Shown here: positions 21,566 through 47,328 of the stretch, piece by piece
Layout of the letters: each line of letters begins with the position of its first letter
Position numbering within the stretch: the first letter of the stretch is position 1
DNA from: a virus
Length of the DNA stretch: 47,328 nucleotides
IMG/VR virus record: IMGVR_UViG_3300005264_000007
Location: 1 to 47,328 of that record
Direction: 5' to 3' (one strand)
Notes under the pieces: generated by a model
Seen by the model: only the letters and a program-made list of their open reading frames with translations
What the model was told of the DNA's origin: nothing
Database searches by the model: none
Position numbers and translations under genes: made by a program

Positions 21566-21915
21566 TATTGCTCACCTAGTTCTTTTAATTGTTGCATTTC
21601 ATACGAGAGTGGGTCTTCAAGCATGGTGATATGTTCATCAATTTGCTCAACTTCCTCGTCCTCGCTCGCTCCATTTTCAATTACTTCCTTTTCATTATCG
21701 CATATCAGCGGTTTAGGTGCAATAGCTCTCGCTCCAAATAAAACTTCCACTTCACCAACCTTTAAACTGGTCACACCGTTCTCACCGCAAACTTCAATTG
21801 CTTTACAGATCGACTCCCAACTGATCGTTCCAGAAGTTGAACTCGTCCTTGTAGTGCGTTTCGGTGTCTTTCTCGTCTTTCCTTGACATGAATCTACCGT
21901 TTTCTTGTCTGTCAT
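21565..21915 (-). CDS. Hypothetical protein between terminase and portal, 116 aa
   Basis: The frame overlaps the end of terL by 113 bases and the portal start by one base. The first 35 residues, encoded in the overlap, are Ser/Thr/Lys-rich and unstructured. The rest has a short alpha-beta unit (WESICKAIEVCGENGVTSLKVGEVEVLFG) and a Glu-rich tail. A later non-ATG start after 21803 cannot be excluded, since the 238-base interval alone would be filled by the C-terminal part. The function is unknown. Confidence 0.6.
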   Translation of the reverse strand: MTDKKTVDSCQGKTRKTPKRTTRTSSTSGTISWESICKAIEVCGENGVTSLKVGEVEVLFGARAIAPKPLICDNEKEVIENGASEDEEVEQIDEHITMLEDPLSYEMQQLKELGEQ

Positions 21916-24169
21916 TATACACTTCCTTTTTGCTGCCCTTCAATTTTACTGTTTTACCTGCCAATACATCATGCCAGTTTATAGGTATTGCCACCATTGC
22001 ATATCTAGCTGTATCAGTCAGGTCGTCCCTAGCTGTCTTCTTGTTGTAACCAATGGTAAGTGATTCTACTTCTCTGCACAACTTATCACCTTCACCTTCC
22101 TCATCATCGTAAACTACAAATATGCCAGTCTTAAATGCTGAGTTTAGAGCAAGCTCTCCTTCTGAGTGGTCTTTGTTTGCTTTAAAGAAAGTGTCGCCTG
22201 CCCTTGTAGCAATGGTTCCAAAGTCTTTCGCTGCTCCATCGTACACCTGTTTTACTGGTACAACTCCTAACTCTTTCCTCAGCTTCACATACGCTTTATA
22301 TAAATCTGCTGCTGTAAAGTCACCTTCACTATCAAACCTCTTGCACTTGATCGCCCTTATCTTCGTCACTTGCTTATTCACAGCTAAAAATATAATTGCC
22401 GATGGGTGTGCCGTTCCTCCTGAACCGTAATCTACTGCTGAGTAAACGTCCCAACCTTTAGGGCAACCATAAAATACTGTGCCATCCTTCTTCACAGGGA
22501 ATGGCTTAAAATTTCTTGCCCTCTTAAACCCTGAGTAAAGTAGTCCACTTTCTAGGACAAACTTACCAAATATACGTCTAGCAACCTCGTTCTCACTTTT
22601 ACATGATTGTTTGGCTATCTCTATCTTTTGCTTAGTCCAAGGTGTGTCACTTCCATCAACATATTCAAGGCAATCATACATACTGATCTGCCTCTTCCAA
22701 GCATGAGGAAACTGCTCATCTTTCATGCCAACATTTTCAATAGTCCTTCTCCAAATATCCTGACCAAGTGTTGCTGTAAATGCCATTGACATCATGCCAC
22801 CTGTAGCGAATAATCTTGCTTCAAGCTCTGGAAGTAATGCCTCTTTAACTTCTTCATCTAATGCGATAAGCCAAACGGTCCCCGATTGTAGGTCACTTAC
22901 ATTTTGGTTGTAGGTTTTAAAATACAACCTAAACCCTGAGTTAAAGTCTATATGTTTCAACACCTTTGTAACTATATTTGCCTTCCATCCATACAAAGGA
23001 TGTTTTTCCATTGAGCCCCTAGGCAATATTTCCTTTATCCATTTAGTCTCAAACTCTGCCATAACAGTGTCCTGATTAGGATAAAGATACCACCCATAAG
23101 GAACTGCACTCGTATTTGTCTTTAATACAGGCCAGAGCGTTTCCCATATTTCAGGCTTAGTTGCTATATCAATCACATCTCTAATTTGAATAGATGAGTT
23201 ATGAGTTACGATGTTAAACTTGGAAGTCAGGTAAGTTGAATCCTCGTTATCAACAGTCATACATTGACCATCAGCAACCTTCCAAAACTCTATCTTCTTG
23301 AACGTCTTGACCTTTTTAGCTGGCTCACCTCTTTTGTGCAATGCCATCGTCTTATTCTTCTGGTGGAATATACCTTTCGATAGGATACCCAAGAATAGAG
23401 TTGTCCCAACTTGATATGCCCACCCACCTAACGAAGTGACCAATTTAATGAAATCGTTAATTGCAGGATGAGCTTTACTATGGAAAGACAAACTCCCACC
23501 TGCCCTTGCAGGAAGGACTCTACCAGTTCTATCCATCACACCATTAAGGAAGCCAAGTCTTTGAAGTGCATTTCCTGTCATTATAGCTTCGGGGATTCTA
23601 CACAGCGACACGTTAGAAGTGAAGTCGTAGTTTGCTGAGAGGTAGTAGCTCGCCTCTTTGCTTGTGCTTGGCATATCTGGAAACTGAATGTTCTTGCAGT
23701 AGTCTACTGAGATACCGTATGGCAGCAACTTCTGTATTTCCTTGGTATCAAACACTTGCCCACTTGTAGTTAACCACTTGTGCTCCATTCCACAAAAGGT
23801 GTAAGTTCCATCGTCAAATGTTACTTTGTGAAACTCCCAATCCTTGTGAGGGAATACAGCAAGAACCTTTGTGGGCTTACCATCTGAACCGTAAACGTAG
23901 TCACCAACAACTATGTCACCATTCTTTTTGTAACCTCTAGTCGTAAGCACTATCTCATCGTTTGGCTGTACTTTCCCAATCTGGTTTGCTGCACACAGGA
24001 ACCGCTTTCTATGAGTAAACTTTGCATCACAGAAGTCCTGCTGCCACTGGTACTTTTTGTTGCCGTATATATGAGGTAATTCGTCCCTATACTTCCTTGC
24101 TTTTTCCAGCGCTACTAGCTTTTTGAGCTTTAGATCGAGTAGCCTTTCTCTTGTATCCAATGATTCCAT
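21803..24169 (-). CDS. terL: Terminase large subunit (packaging ATPase/nuclease) interrupted by an intein, 788 aa precursor
   Basis: The start is taken at the ATG at 24169, which has AGGA eight bases upstream. An in-frame ATG at 24202 lacks a ribosome site. The P-loop reads NQIGK, a 258-residue intein, then SSIQ; splicing restores NQIGKS. After the intein come Walker B (VWLIALDEE), the coupling motif TATLG, and RNase-H-like nuclease acids in VDYGSGG, QVYDGAAKDFG and DDLTDTARYAM. The spliced product is about 530 residues, a normal length. It works with the portal to package and cut DNA. The intein features are listed separately. Confidence 0.9.
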   Translation of the reverse strand: MESLDTRERLLDLKLKKLVALEKARKYRDELPHIYGNKKYQWQQDFCDAKFTHRKRFLCAANQIGKVQPNDEIVLTTRGYKKNGDIVVGDYVYGSDGKPTKVLAVFPHKDWEFHKVTFDDGTYTFCGMEHKWLTTSGQVFDTKEIQKLLPYGISVDYCKNIQFPDMPSTSKEASYYLSANYDFTSNVSLCRIPEAIMTGNALQRLGFLNGVMDRTGRVLPARAGGSLSFHSKAHPAINDFIKLVTSLGGWAYQVGTTLFLGILSKGIFHQKNKTMALHKRGEPAKKVKTFKKIEFWKVADGQCMTVDNEDSTYLTSKFNIVTHNSSIQIRDVIDIATKPEIWETLWPVLKTNTSAVPYGWYLYPNQDTVMAEFETKWIKEILPRGSMEKHPLYGWKANIVTKVLKHIDFNSGFRLYFKTYNQNVSDLQSGTVWLIALDEEVKEALLPELEARLFATGGMMSMAFTATLGQDIWRRTIENVGMKDEQFPHAWKRQISMYDCLEYVDGSDTPWTKQKIEIAKQSCKSENEVARRIFGKFVLESGLLYSGFKRARNFKPFPVKKDGTVFYGCPKGWDVYSAVDYGSGGTAHPSAIIFLAVNKQVTKIRAIKCKRFDSEGDFTAADLYKAYVKLRKELGVVPVKQVYDGAAKDFGTIATRAGDTFFKANKDHSEGELALNSAFKTGIFVVYDDEEGEGDKLCREVESLTIGYNKKTARDDLTDTARYAMVAIPINWHDVLAGKTVKLKGSKKEVYNDRQENGRFMSRKDEKDTETHYKDEFNFWNDQLGVDL
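23198..23971 (-). other. Intein, class 3 type, in the TerL P-loop (258 aa)
   Basis: The segment runs from Val67 to Asn324 of the 788-residue precursor. Block A is VQPNDEIVLTTRG, with Val where inteins usually have Cys, Ser or Ala. Block B is GMEHKWLTTSG with His130 and Trp132. Block F is GQCMTVDNE with Cys303. Block G is FNIVTHN, then Ser325 of the extein, with Thr322 before His323-Asn324. Trp(B), Cys(F) and Thr(G) with no first-residue nucleophile is the defining set of class 3 inteins, which start splicing from the block F Cys. The middle has one LAGLIDADG-like trace. Confidence 0.88.
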
Positions 24170-24308
24170 ATAATGTCCTGTCTGCAGGTATAACTGAAAC
24201 ATTTGCTATTTCGTACTTAACTTCCAGTTCTGCAACCTTCTCTTTTAACACCTTGTCAAATGCAGCTATTCTACTTGTTACACCTATTACTGTTTCAATT
24301 TTCACCAT
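24087..24308 (-). CDS. Small hypothetical protein upstream of terL, 73 aa
   Basis: The frame overlaps the terL start by about 83 bases and the gene before it by seven. It begins MVKIETVIGVTSRIAAFDKVLKEKVAELEVKYEIANVSV and ends in a basic, Ser/Lys-rich tail. Helical N-terminal half followed by one strand region. The stacked overlaps with both neighbours speak for translation coupling. The function is unknown. The tail overlapping terL may be poorly constrained. Confidence 0.55.
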   Translation of the reverse strand: MVKIETVIGVTSRIAAFDKVLKEKVAELEVKYEIANVSVIPADRTLYGIIGYKRKATRSKAQKASSAGKSKEV

Positions 24309-25891: not shown

Positions 25892-25968
25892 TGGCAGGCA
25901 AGGGCGGATTTGAACTGCCAACCTACGGTACCAAAAACCGTTGATCTAGCCAATTGATCTACTTGCCC
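25892..25968 (-). tRNA. tRNA-Gln (anticodon TTG)
   Basis: On the minus strand a full cloverleaf can be drawn. The acceptor is GGGCAAG/CTTGCCT with a first G-U pair. The D stem is GATC/GATC. The anticodon stem ACGGT/ACCGT has loop TTTTGGT, giving anticodon TTG. The variable region is AGGTT, the T loop is TTCAAAT, and G73 is followed by an encoded CCA. The T stem has one A-C mismatch. A weak first pair is usual for Gln tRNAs. Reading CAA codons suits an AT-rich phage. Confidence 0.88.
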
Positions 25969-25980
25969 GATGAACGTAGC

Positions 25981-26418
25981 TTACACTTTTACTCTTTTGA
26001 ATGTACAACCTAAATACCGTTTTATCTCTTCCTCTCTAGATAAATCTTCTTCGATATTGTGCCTGTGATGTTGTTCATCAATCTCATAAGCTACCTTGTT
26101 AATACTATCATAGCCGTCAATTTTGTATTTACCACACTTAAACTGCCTTTCTAGCTTTACGTTTAATACTTGCTCTATTGTATCAATTGCAGCAATCTCT
26201 TTTAGGCATAGTGATATCCTTGTCTTTGTATATTCCCTATAATGTTTATAAAGTGCTTCACTTACTACGTAATATTTACATTTGCAGTTCCTATAACCTG
26301 TATTGTAGTAGCTTTCTGTAATACTCAAATCATTCTCTATTGCAACATTTCTAAGCGATCTCAGTACATTCTTGTGTAAAATGTTAAACTTTTTTGCTAT
26401 TTCAAGTGATGTTAACAT
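25981..26418 (-). CDS. Rha-like N-terminal domain fused to a Vsr/EDxHD-type nuclease-like domain, 145 aa
   Basis: The N-terminus (LTSLEIAKKFNILHKNVLRSLRN) is the Rha-type DNA-binding motif of phage regulators. The C-terminal 60 residues (QFKCGKYKIDGYDSINKVAY, then EIDEQHHRHN and LGCTFKRVKV) follow the layout of small PD-(D/E)XK/Vsr-like endonucleases. There the Asp of KIDGYD and the Glu-Asp/His pairs could bind metal. The gene fills the 479 bases between two tRNA genes exactly, as selfish nucleases often do. A ten-G run stands in the place of the ribosome site. Function as a homing nuclease or regulator is inferred. Confidence 0.65.
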   Translation of the reverse strand: MLTSLEIAKKFNILHKNVLRSLRNVAIENDLSITESYYNTGYRNCKCKYYVVSEALYKHYREYTKTRISLCLKEIAAIDTIEQVLNVKLERQFKCGKYKIDGYDSINKVAYEIDEQHHRHNIEEDLSREEEIKRYLGCTFKRVKV

Positions 26419-26421
26419 TTA

Positions 26422-26431
26422 CCCCCCCCCC
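26422..26431. repeat. Ten-base C/G homopolymer in the ribosome-site position
   Basis: Ten consecutive C on the plus strand (G in the mRNA) end three bases before the ATG of the 145-residue gene. The mRNA would read CTCAG, ten G, TAA, ATG. Length changes in this tract would alter ribosome binding, and it is also a typical sequencing-error site. Confidence 0.85.
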
Positions 26432-26447
26432 TGAGCTGTGTTAAAAA

Positions 26448-26523
26448 TGGCGGAACCAACGAGATTCGAACTCGTGATAAAAGCGTGACAGGCTTTCGTT
26501 ATGACCAACTTAACTATGATTCC
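26448..26523 (-). tRNA. tRNA-Asp (anticodon GTC)
   Basis: The cloverleaf is clean: acceptor GGAATCA/TGGTTCC with one G-U pair, D stem GTTA/TAAC with loop AGTTGGTCA, anticodon stem AAAGC/GCTTT with loop CTGTCAC, and T stem ACGAG/CTCGT with loop TTCGAAT. G73 and CCA are encoded. All invariant positions are in place, including TTCGAAT. G73 with anticodon GTC are Asp identity elements. Confidence 0.93.
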
Positions 26524-34579: not shown

Positions 34580-35253
34580 GAAGTAGCAAAGACATAAAAA
34601 CCAAGTGGCCCAACATTTTATTGCAAGGGTTGTCTGGTGTAGGCAAGACACATTATTTAGGTACAGTTAGTAAGCATAAAAAGTTACTCATATTAGATTG
34701 TGAGTCGGGACTTGCAACTATACGAGGTTGTGAATTTAACTATGAAGAGATATTCAACTTCAAAGAGTTCGAGAATGCTATCGAATGGTATATGTTAAAT
34801 GCTAAGAAACACAAGTTTGATTACTTGGTCATGGATAGTATTAGTAGGTTACAAGCACTACTTTATGACTCAATAGTGAAGACAGGTCAGAAAGCTTCGT
34901 TTGATGATTTTGCACTACTTCTAGCTAAACTTAGAAAGATATGTGAACTGATTACAAGAAAGTTTCCTACTCCTGTAATAGTCACAACAATGGTTAGTAT
35001 GAGTAAGGATGAAGTGACAGGTGGTTATAAGTTATTCCCTACTTTATCAGGTTCATTTAAAGCAGAGTTGAATGGTTATTTTGACATTACCTTAATGTTA
35101 ATGGCAGGCCTAGATAAAAACAATAAAACTAAGTATTGGTCGCAAACACAGTCAGACCGAACTTGTAACTGTAAGAGCAGGTATCAACCATTAGAGAGAG
35201 AGATACCTAGTGACTTTAAAACTATTATGAAGTTGATGGAGTCGCAAAAGTGA
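34576..35253 (+). CDS. Sak4-like RecA-fold ATPase, 225 aa
   Basis: The P-loop GLSGVGKT (residues 18-25), Walker B FDYLVMDSISR (Asp87) and the following TPVIVTTMVSM match the AAA/RecA-type Sak4 family of phage single-strand annealing ATPases. A late TGGYKLFPTLSG and a terminal SDFKTIMKLME are also in that style. Such proteins work with a phage SSB, which follows after the homing endonuclease. It overlaps the nucleotidyltransferase-like gene (ATGA). Confidence 0.78.
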   Translation: MRSSKDIKTKWPNILLQGLSGVGKTHYLGTVSKHKKLLILDCESGLATIRGCEFNYEEIFNFKEFENAIEWYMLNAKKHKFDYLVMDSISRLQALLYDSIVKTGQKASFDDFALLLAKLRKICELITRKFPTPVIVTTMVSMSKDEVTGGYKLFPTLSGSFKAELNGYFDITLMLMAGLDKNNKTKYWSQTQSDRTCNCKSRYQPLEREIPSDFKTIMKLMESQK

Positions 35254-35750
35254 AAGGTGAAAAACATCATGGCATGTCTTACAGTAGGATTTACGCTTGT
35301 TGGAAGAATATGAGAATGCGTTGTACTTATGAGAAGTACAGGGACTTCCATAGATACGGTGGTAGAGGTATTAAAGTTTGTGATCGTTGGTCTGTTAAGT
35401 TTCTTAACTTTTATGAGGACATGGGCGACATTCCAAAAGGACATACTTTAGATAGAATAGATAATGATAAAAATTACACACCAGACAATTGCAGGTGGTC
35501 TACACCTAAAGAGCAAGCTGCTAATAGAACGCAACCCGAGTTCAGAAGCAACAACACATCAGGCTTTGTTGGTATAGATAAGAATAAAGGAAAGTGGAGA
35601 GCTAGGTTTGCACATAAATGCAAAACATACGACCTTGGTTACTTCCCTACAAGGCAAGAAGCTATAGACGAAAGAGAGAAAGTTTATTTTAAAATAGTTG
35701 GTAAACATTCAGTTAATTTAGAACTGATTAAAACAAGGAGCATAACATGA
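35250..35750 (+). CDS. HNH homing endonuclease with AP2 DNA-binding domain, 166 aa
   Basis: GTG start overlaps the Sak4 stop. The N-terminal half is the CWKNMRMRCTYEKYRDFHRYGGRGI-like HNH module with VCDRW, HTLDRIDND and YTPDNCRW. The C-terminal half (TSGFVGIDKNKGKWRARF, then CKTYDLGYFPTRQEA) is an AP2-type DNA-binding domain. This pairing is the usual free-standing homing endonuclease of phages. It interrupts the Sak4-SSB pair without breaking either gene and is fitted with coupled starts on both sides. Confidence 0.9.
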   Translation: MKGEKHHGMSYSRIYACWKNMRMRCTYEKYRDFHRYGGRGIKVCDRWSVKFLNFYEDMGDIPKGHTLDRIDNDKNYTPDNCRWSTPKEQAANRTQPEFRSNNTSGFVGIDKNKGKWRARFAHKCKTYDLGYFPTRQEAIDEREKVYFKIVGKHSVNLELIKTRSIT

Positions 35751-43874: not shown

Positions 43875-46680
43875 TCAACATCTCCCAGATAAGCTTGTCT
43901 TCTTTGTCCTTCATCTTCTCATTCATGTCACGTTCTATATTCTTCATTTCATAGATAGGCTTTTTTAATTCATGCTCTTGCTGTTTGGCACTTAAAGTTT
44001 CGTATCTAATTGGGCCCCACTTTGAAAGTGTTTCACCTATAGGCTTCTTCTTTCTAGCTATATTGTGGTAAGTTCCAAGTATCTGATCGACTATACCAAT
44101 TGGTGCTACTGTGTTTCTAGCAGAGATCATCGCTGCTGTTATGCTATCGTCAGTGTATAAGCTTCTATTAGGTCGCTCTTTTACATTTGCCCTTAACATC
44201 TTTAAAGGTAGTGCTGAATCGAAAACAGGTTTCTTATTTTCCCAATAACCCTCAACACCCATCGTACTATCTAGGAACCAGTCTTTATTCTTACCTATTT
44301 CAGCACCTAACTTTATTAATGGTGCAACCTTAGACAATTGCTCGTCTGTTGTTGATAACATATTTAAAGCATCTATCCACGAAAGGTTAGGCCAGTAAGC
44401 AAGTTTTAAGGCCTTGTCAGCTTCTTCACTTCTAACTCTAGGAGAATACTTTAATAGTCTAGTAGGTATCCTCTTTCGCTGTTCTTCTGTGGGTGGACTA
44501 CCTAAGTTTGTTTGTAGTTTTAATGCTCGAGACATTCTACCTGTATGCTCAAAGAAGTTATCTAGTGTTTGATTAAGGTTTCTAGAGAAGAAAGTATAGT
44601 AAGGGAAGATCCGCTTCATTACCTTTTGCTCAAATAAGTTTACAGCACCATAGTCGTGAAATGTTGCATTGACAACTTTCAATGCCTTTCCTGTTAGTTC
44701 TTTGAACTCTGGTATTGTGTCCATTGCCTTTCTATAGCCTATCTTGTCAACAGTAGCTTTCAATGCCTTGTTGCCCTCTAGTGCAGTTGTCATAACGTGT
44801 TCAAAGGATTTAACTCTAGCTGTACCCTCTACTGCAACACCAAACTTACCAACAGTATTTTTTAGAAAGTCTTGGAAGGTGTCTATGGACTTCATAAACG
44901 TTCCCTTTGCCACCATCCTTGCCATAATTTCATCTGCTTCATGCTTGCCCTTACTAGCAACAAGTAGACCATAATTCTCTTTAGCAGTTTCATTTATACT
45001 AGAGAAGAAGTTGTTATCAATAACTCCTACCTCACTTGCAACATCAAGTATTTCATTATCAAACTTAACTTTCAAATGCCCTTTTTTGGGGTTAGCAATT
45101 TCAAGCATTTCATTAAACAATTTACCAGACTTCCCTTTATTTAAACCTTGGAATGGGAACGAGTGTACTGCTACGTCTATACCAGCCTTTGGCCCGTGCA
45201 TGATATATGCCTTAACATTATTCTCTAGGTAATTATTCTGCAACCACTTATGTGATGTGAACAGGTGCATAGGTTTTATATATCTAGTAAAAGCATCAAA
45301 ACCTTTAAGTGCTGCCTCTATACCATTCGCTGTATTTGTTAATGTTTGATTGCCAAACTTTGCTTTAGTCTCATCTGGTATTCTAGAAACTACTTCTGCA
45401 ACCTTCTCTGCTCTGTTCATGAACGCTTTTGAATATCTTTTAGATGCCATTGTATTTATATCAACAGGGCTCATACTTGCCGTATCAAAGTCTGTCTTTG
45501 CCCTTCGCTTAAAACCTTCTGTCACATCATCAGATAATCGCTCTGTAAATGTTTTCTTCCCACCTTTAAAAGTGTCAGCTATATGCCAATCAATAGGTAC
45601 TTGGTTTGTGCCAAATGCTTTATTGTGCTTGTCTATCATCTTCTGGTTTAAACCCCTATACTCTCTCATTGCTTTTGATAGAGCAGGGTCACCAATCTTG
45701 TCAACAGTGTTTAGTAAGTCTTTACCAACAACAGTGTTTGCTTCTGTCTGATAAGTCCCTGTCATTTCACGTTTAACATCATTGCGTAATATCTCTTTGT
45801 GTGCCTTTAGATCCTTCTTACTAACCTTCTCACCTGTCTTACTAAGCTTGTCTTTGAAAACTTTAAACCTTTTGTCAGTCTCTCCCCTGATAGCAGCGTT
45901 CCTCATTTTCATTGAGGCATTACCGCCTTGGTTGATATGTTCAAAATACATATTGCCAACATCATCTTTCACAAGTCCAGTGTCATTAACTAGATTATTT
46001 AGAATGTCTTGCTTGTCTGCCATTGTGTCCATGTATATCTTTTTAGTTTTCTTCCTTACACCTTTCATAGTCTCCATTGCTTCTGAGACTTTTGGCACTT
46101 TAAGCCCTTTGTGTTTTGCAATCCCTTTCTTTATGGCATCAAAAGCATAGGCCCTAGATGTGTCGTAGTATTTATCTATAGCAGCAGTTCCAACCTTCCC
46201 AACTTTAGTGGCAGCATATTGAACGCCTGTACCTGCAACAATACCAACACCCATGCCAGTTGCTATGTTTTTTATAACGTCTAACCCTTCATCTTCATAG
46301 TCGCTACTAGCTAAACCTAGACCACCACCAAGGATTGCCCTACCAACTAACTTTGCAAATGTTGGATTAAGTCCTAGTTTTGCAAGTTTAGTAGTTAGAC
46401 CTAAACCACCAACATAGGTTAATGGGTCAGTTGCAATGTCTACTGCAAGTGCAACTATAAAAGGAGGTTCCCAATCCTTATCTTCTGGATGCTCATGTAG
46501 GTGTAATCGTTTCAATAGGTCACGACCAGTTACCTCTCGTCTTCCAGTAAGTATGTCCTTATAGTCTTGGGCGTTGAAGCTCAATTCATTGAAGTCAAGT
46601 ATTCCCTCTTTGGCAAGCGAACCTACCATTGACAGTCCCTTGATAACCTTCTCTAGGATTGATCTTTTCTTGTCGCTCAT
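43867..46680 (-). CDS. Large internal virion/DNA-ejection protein, 937 aa
   Basis: The gene overlaps the one before by four bases and closes the virion block. N-terminal amphipathic helices (LEKVIKGLSMVGSLAKEG) precede a Gly-rich hydrophobic region (residues about 85-155, with TDPLTYVGGLGL, LGGGLGLASS and GMGVGIVAGTGV) that could insert in a membrane. The remaining 780 residues are basic and helical, with several long helices (KKTKKIYMDTMADKQDI). Podoviral ejection proteins share this build: large, helical, with a glycine-zipper. No lysozyme-like domain was seen. Confidence 0.72.
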   Translation of the reverse strand: MSDKKRSILEKVIKGLSMVGSLAKEGILDFNELSFNAQDYKDILTGRREVTGRDLLKRLHLHEHPEDKDWEPPFIVALAVDIATDPLTYVGGLGLTTKLAKLGLNPTFAKLVGRAILGGGLGLASSDYEDEGLDVIKNIATGMGVGIVAGTGVQYAATKVGKVGTAAIDKYYDTSRAYAFDAIKKGIAKHKGLKVPKVSEAMETMKGVRKKTKKIYMDTMADKQDILNNLVNDTGLVKDDVGNMYFEHINQGGNASMKMRNAAIRGETDKRFKVFKDKLSKTGEKVSKKDLKAHKEILRNDVKREMTGTYQTEANTVVGKDLLNTVDKIGDPALSKAMREYRGLNQKMIDKHNKAFGTNQVPIDWHIADTFKGGKKTFTERLSDDVTEGFKRRAKTDFDTASMSPVDINTMASKRYSKAFMNRAEKVAEVVSRIPDETKAKFGNQTLTNTANGIEAALKGFDAFTRYIKPMHLFTSHKWLQNNYLENNVKAYIMHGPKAGIDVAVHSFPFQGLNKGKSGKLFNEMLEIANPKKGHLKVKFDNEILDVASEVGVIDNNFFSSINETAKENYGLLVASKGKHEADEIMARMVAKGTFMKSIDTFQDFLKNTVGKFGVAVEGTARVKSFEHVMTTALEGNKALKATVDKIGYRKAMDTIPEFKELTGKALKVVNATFHDYGAVNLFEQKVMKRIFPYYTFFSRNLNQTLDNFFEHTGRMSRALKLQTNLGSPPTEEQRKRIPTRLLKYSPRVRSEEADKALKLAYWPNLSWIDALNMLSTTDEQLSKVAPLIKLGAEIGKNKDWFLDSTMGVEGYWENKKPVFDSALPLKMLRANVKERPNRSLYTDDSITAAMISARNTVAPIGIVDQILGTYHNIARKKKPIGETLSKWGPIRYETLSAKQQEHELKKPIYEMKNIERDMNEKMKDKEDKLIWEMLND

Positions 46681-47328
46681 TTATTGGCCTTCTCTCTCTT
46701 CTTCATTGCCTCGTATGCTTCTAACTTCTCTACGAATGACATGTTCTTATTCTTGTAGACCTCTAGCCACTTGTCGTAGTTTGCTAACCTTATCTTGCTA
46801 TAACCTAGTTTAACTTTAGCGTTAGCAATTCTCTCGTCAGATGCCTTTATGTCTTTCTCTAAACGTCTTGCCTGTAGTAGCTGTCCATTCTGCTTTAACT
46901 TATACATATTTAACTTAAGTAACTTGTTGTCGTTTTGATACTTTTCTAGGCTTTTAAGTTTAGTTTTCTTAAATGCTGACTCTGCTAGGTATTTTTCCTT
47001 TGCAGCTTTCAGTGTTAAATTGCCCATCTCTTTTCGCTGTGCCAGTGAAGCTGTATTATGTATAAGTTTTAACTTCTCTATGTTGTCTCTGCTAAGAAAC
47101 TCTTTAGACCTTAGTACGTTACCTACCTTTGTCTTATGGTATTTGTACTTCAACTCTCTAGCTTTAATACCTTCTCTACTTGTCCTGTTCTTTCCTGCAA
47201 CATCACCTCTAGCAGAAATATTTGCGTCTGTGTTTCGTCTAGAATTTATTCTGTCCTGCTCTTTAGATAACTCAACAGCTATATCCTTCTCTTTCTTGTA
47301 CAAGATATCTAGCAACTTGTTCTTCTTT
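46677..47328 (-). CDS. Internal virion protein, C-terminal part; joins to 1510..1 across the genome ends
   Basis: This is the end of the 685-residue protein that starts at 1510. Bases 47225-47328 repeat 1-104, so the unique part is 46677-47224. The chain is basic and helical, with coiled segments such as VELSKEQDRINSRRN and KQNGQLLQARRLEKDIKASD. An internal ATG at 47315 would give a shorter 212-residue product but has no reason to be the start once the ends are joined. Stop overlaps the 937-residue gene by four bases. Confidence 0.85.
   Translation of the reverse strand, partial: KKNKLLDILYKKEKDIAVELSKEQDRINSRRNTDANISARGDVAGKNRTSREGIKARELKYKYHKTKVGNVLRSKEFLSRDNIEKLKLIHNTASLAQRKEMGNLTLKAAKEKYLAESAFKKTKLKSLEKYQNDNKLLKLNMYKLKQNGQLLQARRLEKDIKASDERIANAKVKLGYSKIRLANYDKWLEVYKNKNMSFVEKLEAYEAMKKREKANK
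47225..47328. repeat. Terminal direct repeat, right copy
   Basis: Identical to 1-104. See the left copy. The base before it (47224, G) differs from the base before the inner 36-base copy (273, A), and the repeat starts exactly at the first base of the contig. Confidence 0.95.

Follow-up and report, generated by a model that had tools for sequence, protein, structure and literature searches.

The DNA analysed here (the window) is a viral contig of 47,328 bases with an exact direct repeat of 104 bases at its ends (positions 1-104 and 47225-47328), and the record is a circular assembly. The cut introduced by assembly falls within a gene (2-1510 / 46677-47327). The portal protein of the record matches the P22 portal family, and no close homologue of the phage was found in the collections searched. 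Single-sequence searches of IMG/VR returned no relatives of the intein described below, of the whole terminase large subunit (TerL) or of the portal, and no relative of TerL was found among genome contigs or by blastn against phages. The window also contains a free-standing HNH endonuclease gene (35250-35750; phrog_374, E 1.9e-50), possibly a homing gene, as well as genes for tRNA-Gln (ttg) and tRNA-Asp (gtc), which lie on either side of a 145-aa ORF (25981-26418; region 25892-26523) with a weak N-terminal Rha-like match. In a search for catalogued structured introns elsewhere in the record, Rfam returned only these two tRNAs, and no scanned ORF elsewhere resembles an intein host.

The TerL gene lies on the minus strand, as do all of its features given below. 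If the longest ORF (21803..24202) is read from its ATG at 24202, which has no AGGA-like sequence upstream, the precursor comprises 799 aa. An alternative ATG at 24169, which encodes residue 12 of that ORF, is preceded by AGGA and gives a protein of 788 aa; hence, this start is the more likely one. On joining the exteins without the intein, a match to the terminase large subunit family phrog_2 was obtained (E 5.8e-15), which the unspliced ORF falls short of, and the host protein is therefore TerL, as had been proposed in the original prediction. Besides Walker A, the acidic residues (Asp/Glu) of the Walker B motif (DEE) and of the nuclease motifs are conserved, the nuclease aspartates among them, and the reading frame is open throughout. 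The kept active-site residues and the open frame fit a TerL that is still in use.

The intein occupies positions 23198..23971 (258 aa, VQPN...IVTHN) and was delimited from its stop-free translation, a PDB match, alignments and the predicted fold. The N-extein side of the Walker A motif (AANQIGK, 23972..23992) ends at the invariant Lys and the Walker A Ser follows as Ser+1 (23195..23197), the predicted second nucleophile; the insertion thus falls exactly between Lys and Ser (ANQIGK/S, the slash marking the insertion point here and below). In nine intein-less IMG/VR relatives, which are 35-42% identical, the empty site reads NQ[ILV][GS]K/S[ST], and the TerLs of Vibrio phage SJSY21, Aeromonas phage APT65 and Sodalis phage phiSG1 read AANRVGK[ST] across the junction. 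The originally predicted span is therefore exact and its placement between the Lys and Ser of Walker A agrees with these uninterrupted proteins; the precursor numbering Trp132 and Cys303 is likewise exact when residues are counted from the ATG at 24169.

Class 3 inteins have a non-nucleophilic first residue and combine Trp B:12, Cys F:4 and Thr G:5 with a +1 residue that is Ser or Thr; the verified members share these residues and Cys F:4, Trp B:12 and His B:10 are needed (PMC5222942). The whole signature is found in the present intein. Position 1, fixed by the junction in intein-less relatives, is Val and not Cys, Ser or Thr. The motif HKW holds His64 (B:10, 23780..23782) and Trp66 (B:12, 23774..23776), the W of the WCT triplet, and GQCMTV holds Cys237 (F:4, 23261..23263), the predicted first nucleophile. 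Thr256-His257-Asn258 (G:5-7, 23198..23206) directly precede Ser+1. An alignment with known class 3 inteins, which had been suggested as a check on the original prediction, places Trp66 and Cys237 on Trp67 and Cys124 of MchDnaB1 and Thr256-His257-Asn258 on its residues 143-145, and the aligned residues have been described as the catalytic set of that intein (PMC7664689). The spacing between Cys237 and Thr256 is 19 residues, the same as that between Cys124 and Thr143 in crystallised MchDnaB1.

A phmmer search against the PDB placed class 3 DnaB inteins on top (6rix, E 2.7e-8; 6bs8, E 3.3e-7), with the class 1 intein gp41-1 ranked below them, and in its alignment the N-terminal part and the C-terminal part of the intein both fall on the catalytic residues of 6rix (MchDnaB1). 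Taken with the residues and their spacing, this upholds the class 3 assignment. In a hand-picked alignment of the intein with nine others from deposited phages, His64, Trp66, Cys237, Thr256, His257 and Asn258 are invariant, and a 24-row alignment with IMG/VR relatives agrees on the catalytic residues, His64 again being invariant; these motif counts are partly a product of construction, because one of the two scan patterns included the block F Cys and the extraction rule demanded HxW and [TS]HN, whereas the PDB match is free of this. The ten-sequence alignment was too diverse to be used as a search query. The intein was not recognised above cut-off by Pfam or NCBIfam. Matches of the precursor to CX-module and Shiga B-subunit families were weak, lay far under the gathering scores and were dismissed as chance.

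An AlphaFold model (pLDDT 86.9) recovered the HINT fold. The N-terminal splicing domain, with blocks A and B, comprises approximately residues 1-90 (23702..23971), has pLDDT values mostly of 95-98 and aligns by phmmer to residues 10-72 of 6rix; the C-terminal splicing domain, with blocks F and G, comprises approximately residues 221-258 (23198..23311) and is placed by the PDB match, the alignment and the model. Foldseek returned PI-SceI first and then, among mini-inteins, 6bs8 (E 1.3e-8, TMt 0.83; TM by target 0.82-0.85) and 6rix, so that the best-ranked PDB mini-inteins by fold are again class 3 DnaB inteins. With a Val1 that is incapable of the N-S shift and a Ser+1 in place, a class 2-like intein could also be imagined, in which Ser+1 itself would be the first nucleophile at the N-terminal junction and the block F Cys would have no role. 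This is barely credible: the full triplet is present, which inteins of the KlbA type do not have, the closest mini-intein structures are those of class 3, the intein clusters with triplet-bearing relatives in trees built without a class 1 outgroup, and class 2 was known only from KlbA as of PMC3196547.

The region from approximately residue 126 to 214 (23330..23596) is a remnant of a LAGLIDADG homing endonuclease of which only the second (block D/E/H) half is left, as judged from full-length relatives and the model, where it forms a helix (135-149) followed by a strand, a helix, strands and a helix. Most relatives carry a two-motif LAGLIDADG endonuclease, in which block C reads, for example, LGxxLGDG and block E reads GLMD[TS]DG. 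Block C, one of the two motifs of the active enzyme, is absent from the present intein; the remaining LAGLIDADG motif is degenerate (LNGVMDRTG, 23522..23548), with Thr149 (23525-23527) at the position of the catalytic Asp on comparison with the GLMD[TS]DG relatives. From its sequence, the remnant is almost certainly dead as a nuclease, and since the first half is lost and the second has Thr in place of its catalytic Asp, this copy of the intein probably no longer homes. Block E is also altered or missing in the Eowyn, USC-1, FishSpeaker, csAssE-Sib, SL2 and EL-type inteins. On a tree of 37 rows, the dead and intact states, scored by eye, switch at least eight times, a count that gives no direction.

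The degenerate endonuclease part raises the question of whether the whole intein has decayed and does not splice, with TerL being dead or redundant. There is a precedent in class 3, the Arsp-FB24 Arth_1007 pseudogene, which splices no more; this intein had lost Cys F:4 and His B:10 (PMC3196547). In the present case, all the splicing residues are intact, the ORF is free of stops and TerL retains its active-site residues; in addition, neither the predicted ORFs of this circular 47-kb genome nor the ORFs compared with PHROGs and Pfam included a recognisable second TerL. Decay of splicing is hence very unlikely.

The reading that we favour, and consider very probable, is that of a class 3 intein of the cis-splicing kind in the Walker A loop of the TerL of a P22-type phage, derived from a mobile P-loop lineage, itself probably immobile now and predicted to splice. 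By analogy with characterised class 3 inteins (PMC5222942, PMC6195587), Cys237 would attack the peptide bond between Lys and Val1, the acyl group would move as a thioester to Ser+1, and Asn258 would cyclise with the assistance of His257. The exteins would then be joined and the intein released, restoring the sequence ANQIGKSSIQ. TerL would be unable to bind ATP properly before splicing, so packaging would have to wait on it; the original claim that ATPase activity and packaging depend on splicing can thus be regarded as a sound inference. The nearest parallel studied by experiment is Msm DnaBi1, which sits in the P-loop of DnaB; its P-loop Ser is both the catalytic +1 residue and a Mg-coordinating residue, and loss of ATPase function of RadA with a P-loop intein has also been cited (PMC6195587).

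The P-loop position and the redox sensitivity of Msm DnaBi1, likewise a class 3 P-loop intein (PMC6195587), raise the prospect that the intein is not a selfish remnant but is retained as a regulatory switch, which might for instance time packaging or subject it to redox control, and the copy does persist though homing is lost. Such a role appears improbable, as no Cys is found where Cys48 of DnaBi1 aligns and sister copies with intact endonucleases indicate a selfish origin. As a selfish remnant, the present copy may simply persist because precise deletion is rare and splicing is good enough.

Trees were built from 37 and 48 splicing domains, without a class 1 outgroup and with extein types assigned partly by eye. 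The clade of the intein is supported at 99/98 (4 rows) and then at 96/90 (12 rows). It includes DnaB-type helicase inteins (L020, L073, L074, L076, L077), the intein in the SF2 helicase of Erwinia phage Kwan and inteins from a TerL family other than that of the present host; the host of L022 is phrog_979, and those of L072 and L078 were called TerL by eye. The host proteins are P-loop ATPases that are otherwise unrelated; nearly all of the inteins lie at GK/[ST] and in most members the first residue is Val. Three IMG/VR members (L079, L081 and L082) have the clade intein at GQAG[KR]/S, a P-loop look-alike in the nuclease half of TerL, and in L081 the true Walker A (GSAKT) has no intein. The Walker A and nuclease pieces of L081 are in different frames, with an HNH endonuclease-like ORF between them, possibly in an intron.

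Within the TerL family of the window, just one further intein was found at this Walker A position, that of L034 (on a contig shared with L067). It was placed in a different part of the tree, and the site was hence probably invaded twice in this family. Inheritance of one intein by both TerLs was rejected: joining the two costs 18 log units (AU p 0.03, a post hoc comparison). Two further TerL inteins were observed. In a TerL of the same family, L064 (IMGVR_UViG_3300037882_002485), a Cys1-type (class 1-like) intein interrupts the C-terminal nuclease motif with the junctions DHL/C...NGILVANC/DAMRY, a second intein site in the family. In the class 3-related TerL intein of Vibrio phage VCO139, block B reads EDHIN and lacks the signature Trp, although the Cys and Thr-His-Asn are there.

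The distribution in the clade is suggestive, without being proof, of an endonuclease that reads GK[ST]-coding DNA. An active LAGLIDADG endonuclease probably spread the lineage by cutting intein-less GK[ST]-coding sequences. The broader proposal is that the endonuclease of the lineage recognises G-K-[S/T]-coding DNA and that the intein thereby hops among P-loop ATPases (DnaB, SF2 helicases and several TerL families) and occasionally into look-alikes such as GQAG[KR]/S, with no fewer than two invasions of the TerL Walker A by distinct class 3 lineages, those of the present intein and of L034; we give this proposal slightly less than an even chance. The supported clade occupies the same Lys/Ser or Lys/Thr bond in P-loop proteins that are not homologous, and related copies span the range from a full endonuclease through a half remnant to none. 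This makes it directly testable whether class 3 inteins spread from gene to gene because their homing is specific for P-loop codons.

The original view of class 3 inteins as a small group is outdated: 1,701 had been catalogued by 2020, 82.5% of them with LAGLIDADG motifs (PMC7891396), and class 3 inteins at the TerL P-loop occur in deposited phages, namely Klebsiella phage Eowyn, Vibrio phage USC-1, Shewanella phage FishSpeaker and phage csAssE-Sib. Class 3 inteins at this site are therefore already known, and what is newer is the hopping clade and the dead half-endonuclease; the latter and the kinship with helicase inteins had been overlooked in the original prediction. With the present case, the record of class 3 TerL inteins grows by one, from a divergent, uncultured phage of the P22-portal type, and the comparative result is the more useful one.

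The inteins of the four deposited phages resemble the present one in lying in the TerL Walker A (GK/...THN/T) and in having H-x-W, the Cys and Thr-His-Asn, with block E lost or altered in all four; however, they belong to other TerL families and another intein clade and their +1 residue is Thr. The mycobacteriophage TerL1-a to -e inteins also interrupt the ATPase domain of TerL. Of these, TerL1-a shares the insertion bond (Lys/Thr), and TerL1-c and -e are of class 3; the class 3 ones were reported away from the Walker A site, in mycobacteriophage hosts (PMC5050341). TerL inteins are also common in crAss-like phages (PMC7886860). The Mycobacterium DnaB-b class 3 inteins (MchDnaB1, 6rix/6riy; Msm DnaBi1, 6bs8) share the triplet, the spacing and the HINT fold, but their host is DnaB and not TerL, they are mini-inteins without an endonuclease, and they align only over the splicing domain. 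Msm DnaBi1 is also at a P-loop, with Ser+1 being the P-loop Ser (PMC6195587), although its position 1 is Ala. The intein in the Kwan SF2 helicase (Erwinia phage; KX397369) has in common with the present intein the clade, Val1, the AVFPH..WEF block and the P-loop site (there GK/T), and differs in its helicase host, its length of 342 aa and its full two-motif endonuclease with an intact GLMDTDG.
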